This document shows, one piece after another, positions 22,572 to 44,180 of a stretch of 64,000 nt of DNA. Each line of letters opens with the position of its first letter. Positions within the stretch are counted from its first letter, which is position 1. The position numbers and the translations under genes are program-made. The notes under the pieces were generated by a model. The model did not search any database. It was not told where the DNA came from and saw only the letters and a program-made list of their open reading frames with translations. The stretch is taken from contig JAJZVV010000001.1 of assembly GCA_021845595.1 (NCBI GenBank), positions 124,001 to 188,000 on the forward strand, given 5' to 3'. The DNA comes from Pseudomonadota bacterium (GTDB lineage Bacteria; Pseudomonadota; Alphaproteobacteria; Acetobacterales; Acetobacteraceae).

Positions 22572-24488
22572 ATGGTTCGCCTGAACCGCTGGTTGCCGCA
22601 GCCATGGTCACTGCTCGCGCTCGTGGTGGCCTTCGCGGCCGCCGCTGGGCTGGGGCTCGGCCTGAGTCGCGCCGTGGGCCGGGTCGCGCTCATCTGGCCG
22701 GCCAACGGCGTGGCCGTCGCCCTCCTCCTGGCCGCGCCGGTGCGGGAGCTGCCGGCGCGGCTGCTGGCGCTGTTCGCCACCGATGTTGCCGTGAATCTGG
22801 CCTGGGGCGAGGACCCCTGGCCAGCGGCGATGGCCATCGCCGGCACCAATGCCGGTGAGATCGCGGCGATGGTCGGGCTGTTGCACGCGCGGCTCCAGCG
22901 TCGGCCGGACCCGACGCGGCCCGGCGCGCTGGGCTTTCTGATCGGCGGCGCCGCCGTGGTCGCAGCCTTTGCCGCCCTCGTCGCTGCGGATTCGCTGTTC
23001 TTCTTGGAGGACCGCCCCTTCCTGCCGGTCCTGGCCGCCTGGTTCGGTGCCGACGCGCTGGGGCTGATCATCGTCACCCCGATCATGCTGGCGCTCGACC
23101 GAGCGGGGATCCGCGCGCTCGCCGCCGGGCCACGGCCGATGGCGACGGTGCTGCTGATCCTGCTGCCTGCGGTGGTTGCGCTCGCCGCCTGCGCCGGGGA
23201 GAACGACGGCCTTGCGTTTCTCGTCTTCCCGCCCCTGATGCTGGCCGCCTGGCGCCTGCCGGCCGCCGGCACCGCGCTGGCCCTGATCTTGATCGCCGTC
23301 ATCACGGTCGGCACGGCCGCCGCCGGCACCGGCTCGTTCGTCGTCGAGGCCGCACACGATCCCGCCGCCTTCGCCTGGATCAGCCCGCCGCAGTTTGCTC
23401 AGCTCTATCTGGCCTGCATCGCGGCAAGCGGTTTCGCCGCCACCGCCGGCCGCCAGCAGATCAACCGGCTTCGCCGCGCCGTTGCCGCCCGCGCCGCCCG
23501 GCTGCGCGACAGCGAAATTCGGACCCGCGTTCTGGCCGAAAGCTCCTCCGATATCATCCTGCGCATCGGCGCCGATGGCCTGCCCCGGTATATCTCGCCC
23601 GCCGTCACCGAAATGCTGGGCTGGACCGTCGCCGAGGTGCTCGGCAGCGACTGGCGCGCGCTCATTCACCCGGACGATCAGCGCGAGGTGCGTCGGATGC
23701 TCGGACAGGCCGCCCGGGAAGCTGCCTCGGTCGGCTTTCGCTACCGGCGGCGGCACAAGAACGGGTCCTATGTCTGGGTGGAGACGCGCACGCGCGCGCG
23801 CAAGGACCCCACGACCGGTGCCGTGATCGAATACATCGCCAACATTCGGGACGTCACGGCGCAAAAGGCGGCCGAGGAGGCGCTCGCGGAGGCCCACGCG
23901 CGGCTGGCTCAGCTGGCGACCACCGACGGGCTCACCAACCTGCCCAACCGCCGCAGTTTCGACAGCGCGCTGGACAGCGAATGGCACCGCGCGCGCCGGG
24001 AATTGATCCCCGTCTCGCTGCTGATGATCGACGTCGATTGCTTCAAGAAGTTCAACGACCATTTCGGCCATCTCGCCGGCGACGACTGCCTGCGCGCGGT
24101 CGCCGATGCCATCCGCGGCGCCGTGCATCGCGCGTGGGACACCGTGGCGCGCTTCGGCGGCGAGGAATTCGCCGTCCTGCTTCCGGCCACCGACGCAGCG
24201 GGTGCGTTGCACATCGCCGAGGCCATGCGCCGGGCGGTGCGCGGGCGGGCGATGCCCCATCCGGGCAGCCCCAACGGCATCGTCACCGTCAGCATCGGGG
24301 TCGCGACCGAGGACACCGATCATTATGCCACGGCGGAGGCCCTGATCGCCGCGGCGGATGCGGCGCTCTACGCCGCCAAATCCGCCGGACGGGACCGCGT
24401 GATGGTCGCCCCGGCATCGCCGCCGCTGGTGCAGATCGCGGCCCCGCCGGTCGCCGACGCGCCGCAACTGATCGCCACCCGCGCCTGA
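22572..24488 (+). CDS. Membrane diguanylate cyclase (MASE1-PAS-GGDEF)
   Basis: A 638-residue protein that would make cyclic di-GMP. Order: MASE1 membrane sensor (about 10-290, some eight membrane helices, with the diagnostic IWPANGVAVALLL), a PAS domain (about 315-440, containing RYISPAVTEMLGW and the PAC end IRDVTAQKAAEEAL), then GGDEF (about 450-610). The active site reads GGEEF (529-533), and RAWD five residues before it is an intact RxxD inhibitory site, so product feedback is expected. There is no EAL domain. Start chosen: ATG at 22572; a TTG 36 bases upstream is in frame but lacks support. A paralogue of identical architecture is encoded at 31850-33727. Confidence 0.9.
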   Translation: MVRLNRWLPQPWSLLALVVAFAAAAGLGLGLSRAVGRVALIWPANGVAVALLLAAPVRELPARLLALFATDVAVNLAWGEDPWPAAMAIAGTNAGEIAAMVGLLHARLQRRPDPTRPGALGFLIGGAAVVAAFAALVAADSLFFLEDRPFLPVLAAWFGADALGLIIVTPIMLALDRAGIRALAAGPRPMATVLLILLPAVVALAACAGENDGLAFLVFPPLMLAAWRLPAAGTALALILIAVITVGTAAAGTGSFVVEAAHDPAAFAWISPPQFAQLYLACIAASGFAATAGRQQINRLRRAVAARAARLRDSEIRTRVLAESSSDIILRIGADGLPRYISPAVTEMLGWTVAEVLGSDWRALIHPDDQREVRRMLGQAAREAASVGFRYRRRHKNGSYVWVETRTRARKDPTTGAVIEYIANIRDVTAQKAAEEALAEAHARLAQLATTDGLTNLPNRRSFDSALDSEWHRARRELIPVSLLMIDVDCFKKFNDHFGHLAGDDCLRAVADAIRGAVHRAWDTVARFGGEEFAVLLPATDAAGALHIAEAMRRAVRGRAMPHPGSPNGIVTVSIGVATEDTDHYATAEALIAAADAALYAAKSAGRDRVMVAPASPPLVQIAAPPVADAPQLIATRA

Positions 24489-27337: not shown

Positions 27338-28012
27338 TCAGATCGCGATCGGGCGGTCCGGAAAGCAGAGCTGCTCGCGATCCCGCCAGCGCGGGCTGAC
27401 ATAATTGATTTCCATCAGCCGCCGGATCCCGTCGATCGGCCGCGGCTCGAACCCGTGCCAGGTATTGGCACCGGGAATGAAAATCACCGCGCTGTCGAAC
27501 TCGGCCGACGACCGCCCGACCCAGCGGCGATCGGCGTCGTAGATGTCCGTGCCCCACTCGTTCGCGTCCGGCCCGGTGCAGAGATAGATCACCATCGAGA
27601 ACCATTTTTCCGGGATATCGCAGTGCGGCTCCAGCCAGGCCCCGTCGATGTCCTGGATGTACTCGATACGCAGGAACCCGCCGTCGACGGAGATGCCGCA
27701 GGTCTCGGCGAAGGCTTTCGCGACCTCGCTTCGCTGCAGCGACTCGGCGAGCAGCGCGCACGGGCGATGGCGCGCGATCCGCTCGGCATTGAAGAACGTC
27801 CGCTTGTCGTTGAAGGATGCGCGGGTTCCGTCATGATGCATGACCGCGGGCGGCGCGATCGGCAGGCTGAGGATGCCGACACAGGCGCTCTCCGGCAGCA
27901 CGTCCTTCAGCCGCCAGTGCCGGTACGGCGTTTCCTCGCGCTGCGCGGCACGCAGCGCGGCGGCGAAATGCGCCGCGACCGACCCCGGTTCGGGAAGAAT
28001 CGGAAATTCCAT
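27338..28012 (-). CDS. 2OG-Fe(II) oxygenase-like protein B
   Basis: A 224-residue protein with the double-stranded beta-helix motif of 2-oxoglutarate/Fe(II) oxygenases. His130 and Asp132 lie in LEPHCDIPEKW, the distal His186 in NTWHGFEPRP, and an Arg (197/198) 11 residues later could bind 2-oxoglutarate; hydrophobic strands flank them (FSMVIYLC, AVIFIPG). The sequence is highly regular, so the gene is surely real, but the substrate is unknown. It lies 28 bases after oxygenase A in the same direction. The two share the WHGF element yet differ elsewhere, so they are distant relatives rather than a recent duplication. Start: ATG at 28012. Confidence 0.75.
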   Translation of the reverse strand: MEFPILPEPGSVAAHFAAALRAAQREETPYRHWRLKDVLPESACVGILSLPIAPPAVMHHDGTRASFNDKRTFFNAERIARHRPCALLAESLQRSEVAKAFAETCGISVDGGFLRIEYIQDIDGAWLEPHCDIPEKWFSMVIYLCTGPDANEWGTDIYDADRRWVGRSSAEFDSAVIFIPGANTWHGFEPRPIDGIRRLMEINYVSPRWRDREQLCFPDRPIAI

Positions 28013-28040
28013 GCGAGCGTCTCCCGATCTGCTGCCGTGC

Positions 28041-28721
28041 CTAACCGATCTTTCGCGGCGCCCAGTCGATCACCTGGCGCAGGCCGGGGATCGATTTCGC
28101 CACCGCGCTCAGCGTGTGACGCCAATATTCCCGCCGCACATACCACTCGGAATCGACGTAGCAGAGCTGCAGACTCATGCGCTGGCCCTTCTGAGGCAGG
28201 AATCCGTGCCAGGAATGATCGCAGACGCGGAACATCAGCATCCGGCCGAATTCTGGCGCGAACTCGAAGGCGACGTCCTCGCGATCGGCGCTGCGCAGCA
28301 CGCGCAGCCGGCCGCGCTCATACGGCCACTCGGGGCTGAAGCCGACGAGAACGGTGACGATCTTGTGCTTCGAGTCGGGGTGTGCGTAGCCCTCGTTATA
28401 GTGCCCCGTGGTGTTGCCCATCATCACCACGACCGGCGGGCAGTCGCTCAGATCCATGTCGAACTTCGCTTCGACGAGATGGCGGAAGCGCGTGCTCAGC
28501 AGATCCTGCACCACGCGGCCGAATTGCGGCCCGTACCGCAGCGCGGGCAGCGCGTAGCTGCCCCGATCGGGGATCCGCGGCGCGTCCGCCAGCACCGGCT
28601 GCTTGTATTGCAGCGGGATCGCCTGCTCGACGAAGCTGAAGTCGTACGGATCCCGCCGCAGTTCCGCGGCGGCAATGGCGGCCTCGTCGAGGAGTTGAAA
28701 CGGCGGCTCGGACTGCGCCAT
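28041..28721 (-). CDS. 2OG-Fe(II) oxygenase-like protein A
   Basis: A 226-residue protein with a 2OG-Fe(II) oxygenase core. His114 and Asp116 lie in GYAHPDSKHK, the distal His172 in DHSWHGF, and Arg181 in KGQRMSLQL nine residues later is the likely 2-oxoglutarate ligand. The run RGRLRVLRSAD matches the usual strand carrying substrate contacts. Family members hydroxylate proteins, lipids or small molecules; the target is unknown. Start: ATG at 28721 with aaggag 8-13 bases upstream decides against a longer frame beginning at 28814. Upstream lie FNR-type boxes at 28801 and 28901, so expression is probably oxygen-controlled. It precedes oxygenase B by 28 bases. Confidence 0.78.
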   Translation of the reverse strand: MAQSEPPFQLLDEAAIAAAELRRDPYDFSFVEQAIPLQYKQPVLADAPRIPDRGSYALPALRYGPQFGRVVQDLLSTRFRHLVEAKFDMDLSDCPPVVVMMGNTTGHYNEGYAHPDSKHKIVTVLVGFSPEWPYERGRLRVLRSADREDVAFEFAPEFGRMLMFRVCDHSWHGFLPQKGQRMSLQLCYVDSEWYVRREYWRHTLSAVAKSIPGLRQVIDWAPRKIG

Positions 28722-28800
28722 GAGGCTGCTCCTTGGAGAGCCGGTCTGACCGGCATTGCGGACCGGCCGCCATCGGGCAGCAGCCGTGTCGAGTCTGTCC

Positions 28801-28814
28801 TTGATCTGAATCAA
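28801..28814 (-). promoter_or_regulatory. FNR-type box upstream of the oxygenase pair
   Basis: TTGATctgaATCAA, a perfect match to the FNR/anaerobox consensus TTGAT-N4-ATCAA. It lies in the 189-base gap between nrdG and oxygenase A, centred 86 bases before the oxygenase ATG. The site is symmetric; the assigned strand follows the gene it probably serves. Confidence 0.75.
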
Positions 28815-28900
28815 GTCCGCCCCATCCGGATCGGGCCAGCCAACATCAGCCCGGGGCGAGGCGACCGAACACCGCGTAGAGCGGGCCGGCGCCGGCGTCG

Positions 28901-28914
28901 TTGACCTGGATCAA
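28901..28914 (-). promoter_or_regulatory. Second, weaker FNR-type box
   Basis: TTGACctggATCAA differs from the FNR consensus at one position of the left half-site. It is exactly 100 bases from the box at 28801 and overlaps the last codons and stop of nrdG (28911-28913). Two boxes on the same face with a long spacing could allow activation plus repression, or this copy may be chance. Confidence 0.45.
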
Positions 28915-29639
28915 ACGCCGCCACCGGCCGCGGACGCGCCCGCTGGGACCGGTGCACGGCGGACCTTCACGGGCAGAATGGAGCCCATCTCGGCGAGCAG
29001 CGGATCGGGCAAGGGCGCCGCCTCGGCGACGAGCCGGGCATCGGGGCAACCGGCGCAGCTGAACTCCTGGATCACCCACTCGGCGACGCCGCGCGCCGCC
29101 AAGGTTTCGGCCATCTCGACCATCGTGCGCCAGGGCAGCAGCGACGGGTGGTAGGTGGTGCGGATTTCATAGGGAACGCCGCCGGCCAGCACGACGTCGA
29201 GCGCCAGCAGGAAGCGCTGGCCGACGCGGGCCCGCCCGGTCACCAGCCCGGCCAGTTCGGGCGGCGCCTTCCAATCCAGCCCGATCCAGTCAAGGAGCGG
29301 CAGGATGCGCGCGAGCGGATCGGGGAGCACGCCGGAGCTGTGCAGCCCGGTGGCGAAGCCGCGCTCCGCGCACTCCGCCAGCGCCGCATCGAGCCCCTCC
29401 TGCGAGCACGGCTCACCGCCGCTGAAGACGACGCCGTCGAGCAGTCCGCGCCGCCCCTCCAGCCAGCTCAGGCAGTCGGGCCACGTGAGCTGACCCGGCT
29501 TCTTCGGGCGCAGATGCGGCGCGTGGCAGTAGCGGCAGGCGAGCGGGCAGCCCTGGAGGTGGACGACGCAGGCCAGCCGTCCCGGGAAATCCTGGGTGGT
29601 GAAGCGCGTCAGCCCGCCGATGCGCAGGGTCTCATGCAT
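28911..29639 (-). CDS. nrdG: Anaerobic ribonucleotide reductase activating radical-SAM protein
   Basis: A 242-residue radical-SAM enzyme that uses a [4Fe-4S] cluster and S-adenosylmethionine to place the glycyl radical on NrdD. The cluster motif is C31-PLA-C35-RY-C38, preceded by TTQDFPGRLACVVHLQGCP, and the SAM-binding GGEP is in VVFSGGEPCSQEG. It is of the longer class (about 240 residues) that pairs with NrdD enzymes of the non-enterobacterial type. Its ATG at 29639 overlaps the nrdD stop by 8 bases, so the two are co-translated. The C-terminal Ala/Gly tail overlaps the weaker FNR-type box. Confidence 0.93.
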   Translation of the reverse strand: MHETLRIGGLTRFTTQDFPGRLACVVHLQGCPLACRYCHAPHLRPKKPGQLTWPDCLSWLEGRRGLLDGVVFSGGEPCSQEGLDAALAECAERGFATGLHSSGVLPDPLARILPLLDWIGLDWKAPPELAGLVTGRARVGQRFLLALDVVLAGGVPYEIRTTYHPSLLPWRTMVEMAETLAARGVAEWVIQEFSCAGCPDARLVAEAAPLPDPLLAEMGSILPVKVRRAPVPAGASAAGGGV

Positions 29640-31746
29640 CTGCCGCCACGAAGAAGCGCCGCTCCTCGAACTCGCCTTGCTTGCCCAGATTGAACGATGC
29701 CACCGGCCGATGATAGCCCATCACGCGCGTCCACACCTCGCAAACCCGCTCCGCGTTTCCCTCGGCCGCGCAGGTCGGGCAGAACCGGTGCTCGCCGGCG
29801 AGGTAGCCATGGTCCGGGCAGATCGAAAAGGTTGGCGTCACGGTGATGTAGGGCAGCCGGAAGCGGGTGAGCGCGCGGCGCACCAGGTCGCGGCAGGTCG
29901 CGGCGGAGCCGATGGGCTCGCCGAGATAGAGATGCAGCACCGTGCCGCCGGTATATTTCGTCTGCAGCTCGTCCTGGCGCAGCAGCGCCTCGAACGGATC
30001 GTCGGTGAAGCCGACCGGCAGCTGGGAGGAGTTCGTGTAGTACGGCTTCGTCGCCGTGCCGGCGTGCAGAATCCCCGGATAGCGCTTGCGGTCCTCGCGC
30101 GCGAACCGGTGCGTCGCGCCCTCGGCCGGCGATGCCTCCAGATTGTAGAGATGCCCGGTCTCCTCCTGGAAGGCGACGATGCGGGCACGGACATGGTCGA
30201 GCAGATCGCAGGCGAAGCGGTGGCCGGCGGGGCTGGTGATGTCCTCGGCGCCGGCGGTGAAGTTGCGGATCATCTCATTGATGCCGTTGACGCCGATGGT
30301 CGAGAAATGGTTGCGCAGACTGCGCAGATAGCGCCGTGTGAAGGGATAGAGCCCGTCATCCATGTGGCGCTGGACCACCTTGCGCTTCACCTCCAGGCTC
30401 TCGCGCGCCAGCTCGAGCAGGCCGTCGAGCCTGGCGTAGAGTGCCGCCGCATCGCCGGCGAACTCATAGCCCAGGCGCGCGCAGTTGATGGTGACGACGC
30501 CGATCGAGCCGGTCTGCTCGGCCGAGCCGAACAGGCCGTTGCCGCGCTTGAGCAGCTCGCGAAGATCGAGCTGCAGCCGGCAGCACATCGAACGGATCTG
30601 GTTGGGCTTGAGATCCGAATTGATGAAGTTCTGGAAATAGGGCAGCCCGTAGCGCGCCGTCATCGCGAACAGGCGCTCCGCATTCTCCGACTCCCAAGGG
30701 AAGTCCGGGGTGATGTTGTAGGTCGGGATCGGGAAGGTGAACACGCGCCCGCGCGCATCGCCCGCGCTCATCACCTCGATGTAGGCACGGTTGATGGCAT
30801 CCATTTCCGGCTGCAGATCACCATAGCGGAACGGCATCTCCTCGCCGGCGATCACCGGCACGGTGGCGCGCAGATCCTCCGGGCAGGTCCAGTCCAGGGT
30901 GACGTTGGTGAATGGCGGCTGGCTGCCCCAGCGCGAGGGCACGTTGAGGTTGAAGACGAATTCCTGGATGTTCTGACGGATCTCGGCGTAGGAGAGCCGA
31001 TCCTTGCGCACGAACGGCGCCAGGTAGGTGTCGAACGAGCTGAAGGCCTGCGCGCCGGCCCATTCGTTCTGCAGCGCCCCGAGGAAATTGACCATCTGCC
31101 CGACCGCGCTGGAGAGATGGCGCGGCGGCGCCGCGTCCACCTTGCCGGGAACGCCGTTCAGCCCCTCCTCGAGCAGCATGCGCAGCGACCAGCCGGCGCA
31201 GTAGCCGGCAAGCATGTCGAGGTCGTGGATGTGCAGCGAGCCGTCGCGATGCGCCGCGCCGACCTCGGGCGAATAGACATGGCTGAGCCAGTAGTTGGCC
31301 GTGAGCTTGCCGGCCGAATTGAGGATGAGGCCGCCGAGCGAATAGCCCTGGTTGGCATTCGCCTGCACGCGCCAGTCCGATCGGTCGAGATACTCGCTGA
31401 CCGAGGCGATGGCATCGACCGCGACGCTGCGGTCCGAACGCAGGCGCGCATGCTGCGCCCGATAGCGGATATAGGCGCGCGCCGTCTCGTGCCAGCCGCC
31501 GCGCATCAGCGCCAGTTCCACCGCGTCCTGGATCTCCTCCACCGACGGCGGCTGCCAGATCGTGCGGGCGGCAAAGCCCGCCGTCACCTCGGCCGCGAGG
31601 TCCGCGGCCACGGCGTCATCGAATTCGCCACTCGCTCGCCCGGCCCGGGCAACCGCCGCCGCGATCCGACGGATCTCGAAACGGGCGCGCGAGCCGTCGC
31701 GACGGACGATCTCGGATGGAACGGGGACAGCGAGTTCGTTCGGCAT
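29632..31746 (-). CDS. nrdD: Anaerobic ribonucleoside-triphosphate reductase (class III)
   Basis: A 704-residue class III reductase making deoxyribonucleotides without oxygen. An N-terminal ATP-cone covers about 10-100 (starting SEIVRRDGSRARFEIRRI). The barrel contains SLHIHDLDMLAGYCAGWSL and NVTLDWTCPEDL. Near the C-terminus is a metal site with C643, H646 (ICPDHGYL), C656 and C659 (RFCPTC), and the glycyl radical position is most likely Gly677 in RVMGYHRPV. Start: ATG at 31746 with gaggga about 10 bases upstream. A perfect FNR box and a TATATA -10 candidate precede it. NrdG follows with overlap. Confidence 0.95.
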   Translation of the reverse strand: MPNELAVPVPSEIVRRDGSRARFEIRRIAAAVARAGRASGEFDDAVAADLAAEVTAGFAARTIWQPPSVEEIQDAVELALMRGGWHETARAYIRYRAQHARLRSDRSVAVDAIASVSEYLDRSDWRVQANANQGYSLGGLILNSAGKLTANYWLSHVYSPEVGAAHRDGSLHIHDLDMLAGYCAGWSLRMLLEEGLNGVPGKVDAAPPRHLSSAVGQMVNFLGALQNEWAGAQAFSSFDTYLAPFVRKDRLSYAEIRQNIQEFVFNLNVPSRWGSQPPFTNVTLDWTCPEDLRATVPVIAGEEMPFRYGDLQPEMDAINRAYIEVMSAGDARGRVFTFPIPTYNITPDFPWESENAERLFAMTARYGLPYFQNFINSDLKPNQIRSMCCRLQLDLRELLKRGNGLFGSAEQTGSIGVVTINCARLGYEFAGDAAALYARLDGLLELARESLEVKRKVVQRHMDDGLYPFTRRYLRSLRNHFSTIGVNGINEMIRNFTAGAEDITSPAGHRFACDLLDHVRARIVAFQEETGHLYNLEASPAEGATHRFAREDRKRYPGILHAGTATKPYYTNSSQLPVGFTDDPFEALLRQDELQTKYTGGTVLHLYLGEPIGSAATCRDLVRRALTRFRLPYITVTPTFSICPDHGYLAGEHRFCPTCAAEGNAERVCEVWTRVMGYHRPVASFNLGKQGEFEERRFFVAADA

Positions 31747-31764: not shown

Positions 31765-31812
31765 CTATATATAGTAGCTCGCCGTCCGAATCTCCCCCTT
31801 GATCTAGATCAA
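31765..31812 (-). promoter_or_regulatory. FNR-dependent promoter of nrdDG
   Basis: TTGATctagATCAA at 31799-31812 is a perfect FNR-type dyad (with flanking c and g the palindrome extends to 16 bases). About 35 bases closer to the gene the minus strand reads ctatatatag (31765-31774), the best -10-like element in the region. The nrdD ATG is at 31746. The spacing is close to that of FNR class II activation, so induction at low oxygen is expected. Confidence 0.75.
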
Positions 31813-31849: not shown

Positions 31850-33727
31850 TCACGCGGCGGCGACTCGGCTGCGCAGCGGGCCGGGGCTGCGTCGCGCCGG
31901 GCGGGCACGCACCACACGATTGCGGCCCTGACGTTTGGCCTCGTAGAGCGCATTGTCGGCCGCGGCGAGGAGTTCCTCCGGCGCGCCCTGCCCGGGCCAG
32001 GCATCGGCGACGCCGATGCTGACGGTGACGATGCCGCGCGGATTTCCCTCGTGCGGCAGGCTGAGCCCGGCCAGAACGCCGCGCAGCCGCTCCGCCGCCA
32101 GCGCCGCGGCGCCGATCTCGCTGCCGGCGAGGAGCACGGCGAATTCCTCGCCGCCATAGCGGGCCGCCATGTCGCCCGGGCGGCGGAAGGCCGCGCCGAT
32201 CGCCTCGGCGACCGCCCTGAGGCACGCGTCGCCCTGCGGATGGCCGTAGCGATCATTGTAGCGCTTGAAGAAATCCACATCGATCATGAGCAGGCCGAGC
32301 GCCGAGCCGTCCCGGGCGGCGCGCCGCCACTCGCGCTGCAGCAGCGCGTCGAACTGGCGGCGGTTGCCGAGACCCGTCAGCGCGTCGGTCGCCGCCAGCG
32401 CCTCCAGCGCCGCGTTGGCCGCCATCTGCCGCGCCTCCTCGGCCTTGCGCGCGGAAATGTCGCGGGCACGCAGGACGATTTCCTCCACCACCCCGGTCAG
32501 CGGATCGGTCAGCGGGCAGATCCGGGCCTCGACCCAGACCGCGTCGCCGTCTGCCCTTGTGCAGGACAGGGTCAGCGGCGCTGGCAGCGATCCGCCGCGG
32601 GCTTCGCCCAGCGCCTGCTCCAGCGCCGCGCGGTCCGCGGGGCGGACCAGATCGAGAATCGTCCGTCCGACCGCCTGCTCGGCCGCCAGCCCCAGCAATC
32701 CGGCCATCGCCGGCGAGACGGCGTGGCAGACGCCGTCCGGCCGGCAGCGCAGCATGCCGTCATCCGCGTTTTCGGCGAGCAGCCGGAACCGCGCTTCGCT
32801 GCGCGCCAGCGAGCGCTCGCGCTCAGCCAGCGCCGCGATCGCACCGCTCCGCGCGGCGGCGATGGCACCGAGCGCGTAGGCCATCACCAAGCTTGCCAGC
32901 AGATAGAGCTGTACCGAAACCACCGCCAGCCCGGGCGCGGCGCCGAAGGCGAGCGGACCCCGCCCGGCCAGGGTGAAGCCGAGCGCGACCGGGGTGAGCA
33001 GCACCACCGAGAGCATCGCGCCGGCAAACCCGAGCGCCTCGACGAGCGCGACCATGGGCAGGAAGGCGAGTGCCGACAGGGCGAGTCGGCTCTGGGCGAA
33101 GATCGGCACGGCGCAGGCAAGGAACGCCACGATCAGCGCCAGCGTCCACGGCCAGCGCGTGCGGGCGAACAGCGTGCGCAACTCCGACCCGGCAAGGCCC
33201 AGCACCAGCGGCGTCGCGAACGCGGTGCCGAGCGCGTCGGCGGCGAACCAGCTCCGCAGCACACGCCCTTCATCGAAGCCGGCGAATCCGGACAGGACCT
33301 CCGCGGCGAAGGCAGCGCCGAGCAGCGGGGCAACGCCAACGGCGGCGACGGCAAAGCGGACCAGCCCCGCGCCGCTGGCCAGCCCGGCGACGCCGCTGCC
33401 GCGCGGGTGCAGCAACGACGCCGCGACCAGCACCTCCACGCTATCGCAGCCGGCGAGCGCCAGCGCCATGCCGCCGGAATCGCCCCGCAGCAGATCGGCC
33501 GCCAGCGTGCCGAGCAGACCGGCGAGGAGATAGGCGGGGGCACGCGCGAGCGGCGCGCGCAGTACCAAGGCCAGCAACAATCCGTTGCCCGGCCAGATCA
33601 CGGCGACGCGGCTGTCCGGGCCGATCACCGCCAACGACGCCCAGGCTGAGGCACCGACCACGACCGCGACGCCGAGGCTTGCAGCCAGCGTCCGCCAGGC
33701 TCGACGGTATCCCACGGCATCCCCCAT
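31850..33727 (-). CDS. Membrane diguanylate cyclase (MASE1-PAS-GGDEF), second copy
   Basis: A 625-residue protein with MASE1 membrane sensor (about 10-290, with VIWPGNGLLLALVL), PAS (about 310-440, ending ARDISARKAEEARQM) and GGDEF domains. The active site reads YGGEEFAV (around residue 525) and RPGD five residues before it is an intact RxxD inhibitory site. The predicted product is cyclic di-GMP. It shares full architecture with the cyclase at 22572 but the membrane halves have diverged, so signals probably differ. Start: ATG at 33727. The nrdD promoter lies directly after its stop on the same strand; read-through is possible but the FNR promoter sits between. Confidence 0.9.
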   Translation of the reverse strand: MGDAVGYRRAWRTLAASLGVAVVVGASAWASLAVIGPDSRVAVIWPGNGLLLALVLRAPLARAPAYLLAGLLGTLAADLLRGDSGGMALALAGCDSVEVLVAASLLHPRGSGVAGLASGAGLVRFAVAAVGVAPLLGAAFAAEVLSGFAGFDEGRVLRSWFAADALGTAFATPLVLGLAGSELRTLFARTRWPWTLALIVAFLACAVPIFAQSRLALSALAFLPMVALVEALGFAGAMLSVVLLTPVALGFTLAGRGPLAFGAAPGLAVVSVQLYLLASLVMAYALGAIAAARSGAIAALAERERSLARSEARFRLLAENADDGMLRCRPDGVCHAVSPAMAGLLGLAAEQAVGRTILDLVRPADRAALEQALGEARGGSLPAPLTLSCTRADGDAVWVEARICPLTDPLTGVVEEIVLRARDISARKAEEARQMAANAALEALAATDALTGLGNRRQFDALLQREWRRAARDGSALGLLMIDVDFFKRYNDRYGHPQGDACLRAVAEAIGAAFRRPGDMAARYGGEEFAVLLAGSEIGAAALAAERLRGVLAGLSLPHEGNPRGIVTVSIGVADAWPGQGAPEELLAAADNALYEAKRQGRNRVVRARPARRSPGPLRSRVAAA

Positions 33728-44166: not shown

Positions 44167-44180
44167 TTGATCTGCGTCAA
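44167..44180 (-). promoter_or_regulatory. FNR/FixK-like box upstream of the BON gene
   Basis: TTGATctgcGTCAA fits TTGA-N6-TCAA, the FixK/FNR dyad, with one change in the right half-site. It lies about 95 bases before the BON-domain gene start, in the 169-base gap after the sugar ABC operon. Confidence 0.6.

Follow-up and report, generated by a model that had tools for sequence, protein, structure and literature searches.

The 64,000-nucleotide stretch of DNA analysed here (the window; positions 124,001 to 188,000 of contig JAJZVV010000001.1, assembly GCA_021845595.1, Acetobacteraceae) raises the question of what needs hydroxylation as oxygen runs out. In it, two tandem genes, A and B, encode oxygen-using enzymes of the Fe(II)/2-oxoglutarate (2OG) oxygenase type that are bundled and apparently co-controlled with genes for anaerobic life. 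Our tentative answer is that A and B form, together with a chorismatase-like protein here called RidX, a three-gene biosynthetic module induced at low oxygen, in which RidX would provide a hydroxybenzoate and A/B would hydroxylate a small molecule, possibly for ubiquinone. Each of these protein families is known; what would be new is the membership of such oxygenases and a chorismatase-like enzyme in a low-oxygen regulon. In line with the first-pass annotation of this DNA, which knew of no system with such a layout, we recognised no description of the module in open-access PubMed Central (subscription papers and preprints lie outside that scope).

The oxygenase pair and its chorismatase-like partner

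Gene A (28,041–28,721, minus strand) encodes 226 amino acids and gene B (27,338–28,012, minus strand) 224. The first-pass annotation had described them as diverged 2OG-Fe(II) oxygenase-like proteins and named their metal-binding residues correctly: H114, D116 and H172 of A are invariant, together with R181, in an alignment of 46 sequences, and so are H130, D132, H186 and R197 of B in an alignment of 44 (the window's own copies included). Both R181 and R197 lie at what we take to be the position of the 2OG-binding arginine. The two genes are complete, and their third-position G+C contents (0.86 and 0.85) are close to that of the neighbouring nrdD (0.87). A mechanical list of open reading frames begins A at a TTG (28,814); we prefer the ATG at 28,721 because the residue numbers given in the first-pass annotation match it. 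Pfam family PF13640 matched A over its cut-off (2.2e-7) and B weakly, under the cut-off (0.0033), while NCBIfam holds no family for either protein, and a phage collection, searched with A and not with B, gave no match.

The AlphaFold2 models of A and B (pLDDT 92.3 and 92.1) adopt the double-stranded beta-helix fold that an oxygenase assignment implies. Structural comparison with the Protein Data Bank (PDB) by Foldseek and VIA-align placed PasI and PolD closest to both proteins, with Z scores of 21.0 (2.4 Å over 185 residues) and 20.1 (2.1 Å, 183 residues) for A, and of 18.8 (2.8 Å, 192 residues) and 18.8 (2.5 Å, 185 residues) for B. By this fold and the HxD...H...R residues, A and B are predicted enzymes of the Fe(II)/2OG oxygenase superfamily. 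Because these closest solved folds act on small molecules, we favour small-molecule hydroxylases over a sensor-type protein hydroxylase for both models.

The pair is conserved as a unit. Among 100 genomes (that of the window and 99 relatives), some A-like match occurs in 45 and some B-like match in 21, while a close A (at least 394 bits) is present in six and a close B (at least 314 bits) in seven; the two are adjacent in all six genomes having both, and in the seventh, G021, B lies at a contig end. When 84,980 species genomes were scanned with the B alignment, 534 relatives emerged, of which the best 80 were analysed; 51 of these carry an A of this subgroup, making 52 loci with that of the window. 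Six loci in which the gene caller gave no A or no B (L058, L063, L072, L078, L119 and L153) were not counted. Genes were called with our own simple codon-based script, with which short or low-G+C genes may be wrong, and the loci are not independent (L081 equals G001, L082 equals G002, and four are Rhodopila). Named carriers include Rhodopila globiformis DSM 161 (L121) and Acidiphilium plasmids. Beyond this subgroup, a wider family comprises single A-like genes of about 30–37% identity with other neighbours; a low-oxygen-type box, one mismatch allowed, immediately precedes the gene in just one of 17 such loci (L073).

Related oxygenase genes were also seen in other surroundings. In L139–L160, mostly Azospirillum, an ELM1-family gene (PF06258 in L139) directly precedes a B-A-like pair with no box near, the order in most of the Azospirillum loci being ELM1-like gene, B, A-like gene; this is a second, different setting for related oxygenases. 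Beside an FnrL-like gene in L103 (9,359–12,711) and L090 (8,855–11,008) stand extra oxygenase-like genes, among them those of a third type, with about 265 amino acids and no NCBIfam match.

The same loci give good support to a third member of the unit, the chorismatase-like RidX, and hence to a controlled three-gene module; the two-gene unit of the first-pass annotation thus holds as a pair and is incomplete as a list. RidX lies directly before A in 22 of the 52 loci, as one of the two genes that follow A in 14 (on the opposite strand in L094) and in neither place in 16, so that it adjoins A-B in 36 of 52, the window counted among them, and is found within 6 kb in 37. In the window genome itself, RidX is located 129 kb from A-B on the same contig, outside the window, with an exact box of its own 56 bases before its start. 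Full-length RidX (at least 490 bits) occurs in G000, G001, G002, G016 and G036, all with A-B, and is missing from G059 and G021, which both have a close B; this amounts to five of the seven genomes with a close B versus none of the other 93 (p = 2.8e-7, three of the five being one genus). A broader tally of 51 in 100 genomes consists mostly of shorter RidA-type matches and was set aside.

RidX has about 385 residues and matches the FkbO/Hyg5 chorismatase model TIGR04444 (5.9e-12) as well as FkbO in the PDB (5.6e-5). Its Glu370, present in at least 95% of 39 RidX sequences, aligns with Glu338 of FkbO, the catalytic glutamate in the C-terminal, RidA-like half. Gly285 and Cys363 are conserved in the same 39 sequences, spaced as expected for two of the three Hyg5-type (CH-II) diagnostic residues (Gly, Gly, Cys), whose roles are treated in the parts of PMC7170507 drawn on here; the third position holds Ala or Ser instead of Gly, the alignment being uncertain there. 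Since its scores lie under the curated cut-off, RidX is not filed as a member of the FkbO/Hyg5 subfamily, and excerpts of PMC3949708 state that the product of a chorismatase cannot be accurately predicted from sequence. Taken together, a chorismatase-like enzyme and two small-molecule-type hydroxylases suggest a short aromatic pathway.

Low-oxygen boxes, their probable reader and the company kept

An exact FNR/FixK-type box, TTGAT-N4-ATCAA, is found at 28,801–28,814, 79 bases upstream of the start codon of A, and a copy with one mismatch at 28,901–28,914, which overlaps the 3' end of nrdG and is identical in two genomes of the same genus. Both had been reported in the first pass, which missed a further exact box (31,799–31,812) 52 bases upstream of nrdD. 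With up to one mismatch the window holds five matches versus 0.26 expected. One of these, at 27,405, was considered as a regulatory site and taken as a coding coincidence, being inside B and at the same place within B in many relatives. Another, at 44,167–44,180, lies with one mismatch about 92 bases upstream of a gene with three BON domains.

In the 3.6-Mb assembly of the window genome, 17 exact boxes were counted versus none for the reversed control pattern. Three of them precede A-B, RidX and hemN-A2-B2, an apparent operon (L041) in which hemN is followed by a second, diverged pair whose identities are about 30% for A2 to A and 43% for B2 to B; its three genes are contiguous (gap of 10 bases, overlap of 4). 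Others stand at nrdD, the ccoN cluster (cbb3 oxidase), nosZ, ubiT (with a ubiD-family gene on the opposite side) and pqqC, a set that looks like a genuine low-oxygen regulon. The box of pqqC (L216:2,094–2,822, G000:C28) is about 76 bases upstream of the gene.

The same association was seen across the loci. After removal of L118 and L134, which have fewer than 250 upstream bases, 32 of the remaining 50 loci show a box (one mismatch allowed) in the 300 bases before the module, whereas 10 of 214 other starts from these loci do (odds ratio 36, kinship ignored); for exact boxes the counts are 18 of 50 and 4 of 214, likewise with kinship ignored. These figures replace a first, cruder count, whose control (51 of 543) was contaminated by shared divergent promoters and gene-call errors. 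The box is 48–108 bases from the start of the module in 30 of 33 cases; elsewhere in the window genome the distances are 52 (nrdD), about 48 (ubiT) and about 81 (ccoN cluster). The bases directly after the box are also conserved in the 33 modules, the second being G in 28 and the fourth C in 26. A search for a minus-10 element gave a weak peak 24–29 bases after the box across these modules and nothing clear in the window itself.

FNR and FixK boxes share one consensus. A search of the window genome (assembly 97% complete) with a single model, FnrL, gave one match, a FixK-like protein whose N-terminal part is without cysteines and which matches the FixK model at 3.2e-55, below its cut-off; its gene adjoins one for FixJ (over the cut-off) and one for a histidine kinase with two PAS domains. 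Given the kind of regulator found, its neighbours and the shared consensus, these boxes are more likely to be read by a FixLJ-FixK cascade than by FNR itself. The earlier proposal of an oxygen-sensing regulator therefore stands as to the type of box and changes as to the protein.

A and B are placed downstream of nrdD (29,632–31,746, minus strand), which matches the anaerobic ribonucleoside-triphosphate reductase model TIGR02487, and of nrdG (28,911–29,639, minus strand), which matches the NrdG2 activase model TIGR02495; all four genes run in the same direction, as first noted. Within 6 kb of the module, the 52 loci (eight that repeat other contigs being omitted from the tally) contain NrdG in 8, NrdD in 6, UbiU in 7, UbiV in 7, UbiT in 5, HemN in 4 and an Fnr-like regulator in 4. 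Several layouts tie the module to these genes: L089 and L102 have a contiguous A-B-RidX-hemN; L107 has RidX-A-B followed by ubiT-ubiU-ubiV; in L088 one exact box lies between ubiT-U-V-RidX and the divergent A-B; and in L157 hemN diverges from a related pair across a one-mismatch box. Because the module genes share one operon or one box with hemN and ubiTUV, the module should be expressed at low oxygen.

Plasmids carry a comparable assembly. On pACMV3 of Acidiphilium multivorum (NC_015179.1, 20,000–49,000; L223), nrdDG, ubiT-U-V-RidX, pdxST and A-B lie among transposases, the ubi genes being annotated as SCP2 and U32 proteins. The same gene set is found on a plasmid labelled Acidithiobacillus ferrooxidans (CP084173.1, 44,000–70,000; L224), a label that may stem from Acidiphilium in the culture, and the part read of pACRY03 (A. 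cryptum JF-5) carries A-B. On all three plasmids the RidX copy beside A is split into two frames and has lost part of its C-terminal half, whereas the two with ubiTUV have an intact RidX after ubiV. The first two plasmids carry a portable set of genes for oxygen-independent biosynthesis (nrdDG, ubiTUV, pdxST) with RidX and A-B.

Among further observations on these surroundings, two related membrane PAS-GGDEF-like genes (identified by eye; 22,572–24,488 and 31,850–33,628) bracket the nrdDG-A-B region of the window. In L214 (G000:C25:1–14,000), pqqE, a urate-oxidase-N-like gene and, by eye, serC-like and pyrD-like genes stand beside ubiTUV and a ubiD-family gene; a gene set of this type is proposed, in the portion of PMC12423496 used here, for oxygen-free synthesis of pyrroloquinoline quinone (PQQ) in Hyphomicrobium denitrificans. 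A link to fatty-acid-type genes (acpXL-like) was rejected: such genes stand no more than 6 kb from the module in three of the 52 loci, each from Hyphomicrobiales, and at a distance of about 7 kb in a single Rhodopila locus.

What the module may make

On the tentative reading, an activator of the FNR/FixK type would turn on RidX-A-B at low oxygen; RidX, with its chorismatase fold and catalytic glutamate, would split chorismate into a hydroxybenzoate and pyruvate; and A and B would use Fe(II), 2OG and residual oxygen to hydroxylate a small molecule derived from that product. The likeliest destination, a weaker step, would be the ubiquinone head group under microaerobic conditions. Among the destinations considered this one is best supported, because ubiTUV operons recur beside the module and no UbiC-family match was found in the window genome. 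Oxygen-dependent enzymes under low-oxygen control are not absurd, since Fnr activates ubiUV of Escherichia coli at 0.1% oxygen (according to the section of PMC10470549 consulted), the L-proline 3-hydroxylase SMc03253 of Rhizobiales is controlled by FixJ (as given in part of PMC4999443), and pqqC, whose product uses oxygen (as stated in an excerpt of PMC12423496), has a box.

A more specific form of this scheme, which we consider unlikely, would make the module a soluble pathway for the ubiquinone head group at low oxygen, with RidX making hydroxybenzoate in place of UbiC and A/B, as the first 2OG oxygenases in quinone biosynthesis, hydroxylating the free acid before prenylation. At trace oxygen, flavin enzymes of poorer oxygen affinity would thereby be bypassed, and UbiUV would take over at zero. 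UbiA/Coq2 enzymes are described as accepting hydroxylated 4-hydroxybenzoates (PMC5479927, in part), and the source of the head-group precursor without UbiC is named as a gap for Hyphomicrobium denitrificans in the pages of PMC12423496 cited above. Were the ubiquinone reading true, it would supply such a source for some bacteria without UbiC, together with a new class of quinone hydroxylase.

Several results weigh against the module as we read it, or against ubiquinone as its destination. Its recurrent named enzyme neighbours (NrdDG, UbiTUV and HemN) replace oxygen-using steps, yet A/B are expected to need oxygen. Even with one mismatch allowed, 18 of the 50 modules lack a box, and further exact boxes in the window genome precede glgA, HlyD-like and alginate-export-like genes with no evident link to oxygen. 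The TIGR04444 scores of RidX (45.5 and 56.3 bits) are far below the curated cut-off of 325. To our knowledge, no enzyme of the PasI/PolD kind acts on an aromatic ring. A close B is missing from 93 of the 100 genomes; UbiU has no match in G016, which carries RidX-A-B, nor in G059, where A-B also lacks RidX; G021 has a close B without RidX. A UbiC match is missing in 98 of the 100 genomes and RidX is present in just 5, so RidX is no general source of hydroxybenzoate. Furthermore, Coq7 and one flavin ubiquinone hydroxylase are over cut-off in the window genome, which leaves no ring hydroxylase obviously missing; the idea that A/B fill an empty flavin-hydroxylase slot of ubiquinone synthesis was ruled out on this ground.

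The presence of those ring hydroxylases also speaks for another possibility, doubtful in our view although a serious one, that RidX-A-B serve at low oxygen to make a shikimate-derived small molecule of their own that has nothing to do with ubiquinone, such as a signal, pigment, chelator or antibiotic-like compound. Several known chorismatases of this fold serve secondary metabolism (according to parts of PMC7170507 and PMC3949708), PasI and PolD are nucleoside-antibiotic enzymes, and acyl carrier, ketosynthase and dehydratase-like genes were noted by eye near the module in 3 of 52 loci. Such biosynthetic or transport genes recur little, however: carrier and synthase were seen in 3 of 52 loci and, as judged by eye, an ABC-type ATPase in 4 and a reductase in 6, whereas NrdG (8), UbiU (7) and UbiV (7) recur more, and operons with ubiTUV occur in several backgrounds.

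That A and B are protein hydroxylases which, in the manner of PHD2 or the Pseudomonas EF-Tu hydroxylase, sense oxygen or modify the translation machinery seems improbable. Hypoxia-induced oxygenases that act as sensors have precedents, the A profile matches PHD2 at 3.1e-5, and the next folds for A and B are Tpa1/OGFOD1, a Pseudomonas prolyl 4-hydroxylase (P4H) and PHD2, at Z scores of about 13 to 17. Against this, PasI and PolD are nearer, and a chorismatase-fold partner is ill-suited to a protein modifier. Thus, of the three options raised in the first pass (repression at low oxygen, a sensor induced there, or a product made at the switch), the sensor role is possible and not favoured.

Repression, by which A and B would be aerobic enzymes shut off at low oxygen, is very unlikely, even though FNR-type boxes can repress and A/B should need oxygen. 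The paralogous A2-B2 follows straight after hemN in the same direction behind one box, on which ground we rejected repression as the main logic; the boxes of L088 and L157 are shared between A-B or a related pair and the divergent ubiTUV-RidX or hemN; and the box distances of the module resemble those of nrdD, ubiT and the ccoN cluster. Least probable of all is that A/B are mere neighbours of anaerobic genes, an association without functional content: the surroundings do differ between loci, many of which are fragments of metagenome genomes, and a cruder test on these loci found boxes before just two of nine nrd units and none of six ubi units, which makes the box no sharp marker. Against this, UbiU is within 6 kb in 7 of 52 loci, where about 0.2 would be expected if the loci were independent and 12 of 3,500 genes lay within that distance, and RidX has an exact box of its own in the window genome even though it is not linked to A-B there.

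Comparison with known systems

PasI of Photorhabdus (9ei6, 9ei7) and PolD of Streptomyces (9blq), both Fe(II)/2OG enzymes of nucleoside-antibiotic pathways, are the nearest solved folds to A and B, with 14–21% identity, Z scores spanning 18.8–21.0 and the HxD motif and distal His aligned. Unlike PasI and PolD, A and B are tandem paralogues with a low-oxygen box and a chorismatase-like partner, and no nucleoside-antibiotic genes were recognised among the recurrent neighbours of the module, where no model search was aimed at them. PHD2/EGLN and the Pseudomonas prolyl hydroxylases have the same fold and HxD...H...R site and are more distant from A/B than PasI and PolD. On the side of RidX, the catalytic Glu, one Gly and the Cys are held in common with the chorismatases of the FkbO/Hyg5/XanB2 kind, XanB2 itself not being compared.

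As to control, SMc03253, as described in the part of PMC4999443 cited above, is likewise a hydroxylase gene under a low-oxygen regulator, a likeness by description and not by sequence; it is a single gene under a different regulator, unlike A-B. UbiTUV, presented in the cited portion of PMC10470549 as an oxygen-independent ubiquinone pathway controlled by Fnr in E. coli, comes closest in company: several loci and two plasmids carry its genes beside the module, and ubiT of the window genome has its own exact box. That portion does not mention RidX-A-B, and UbiTUV works independently of oxygen, unlike A and B, the expected oxygen users.

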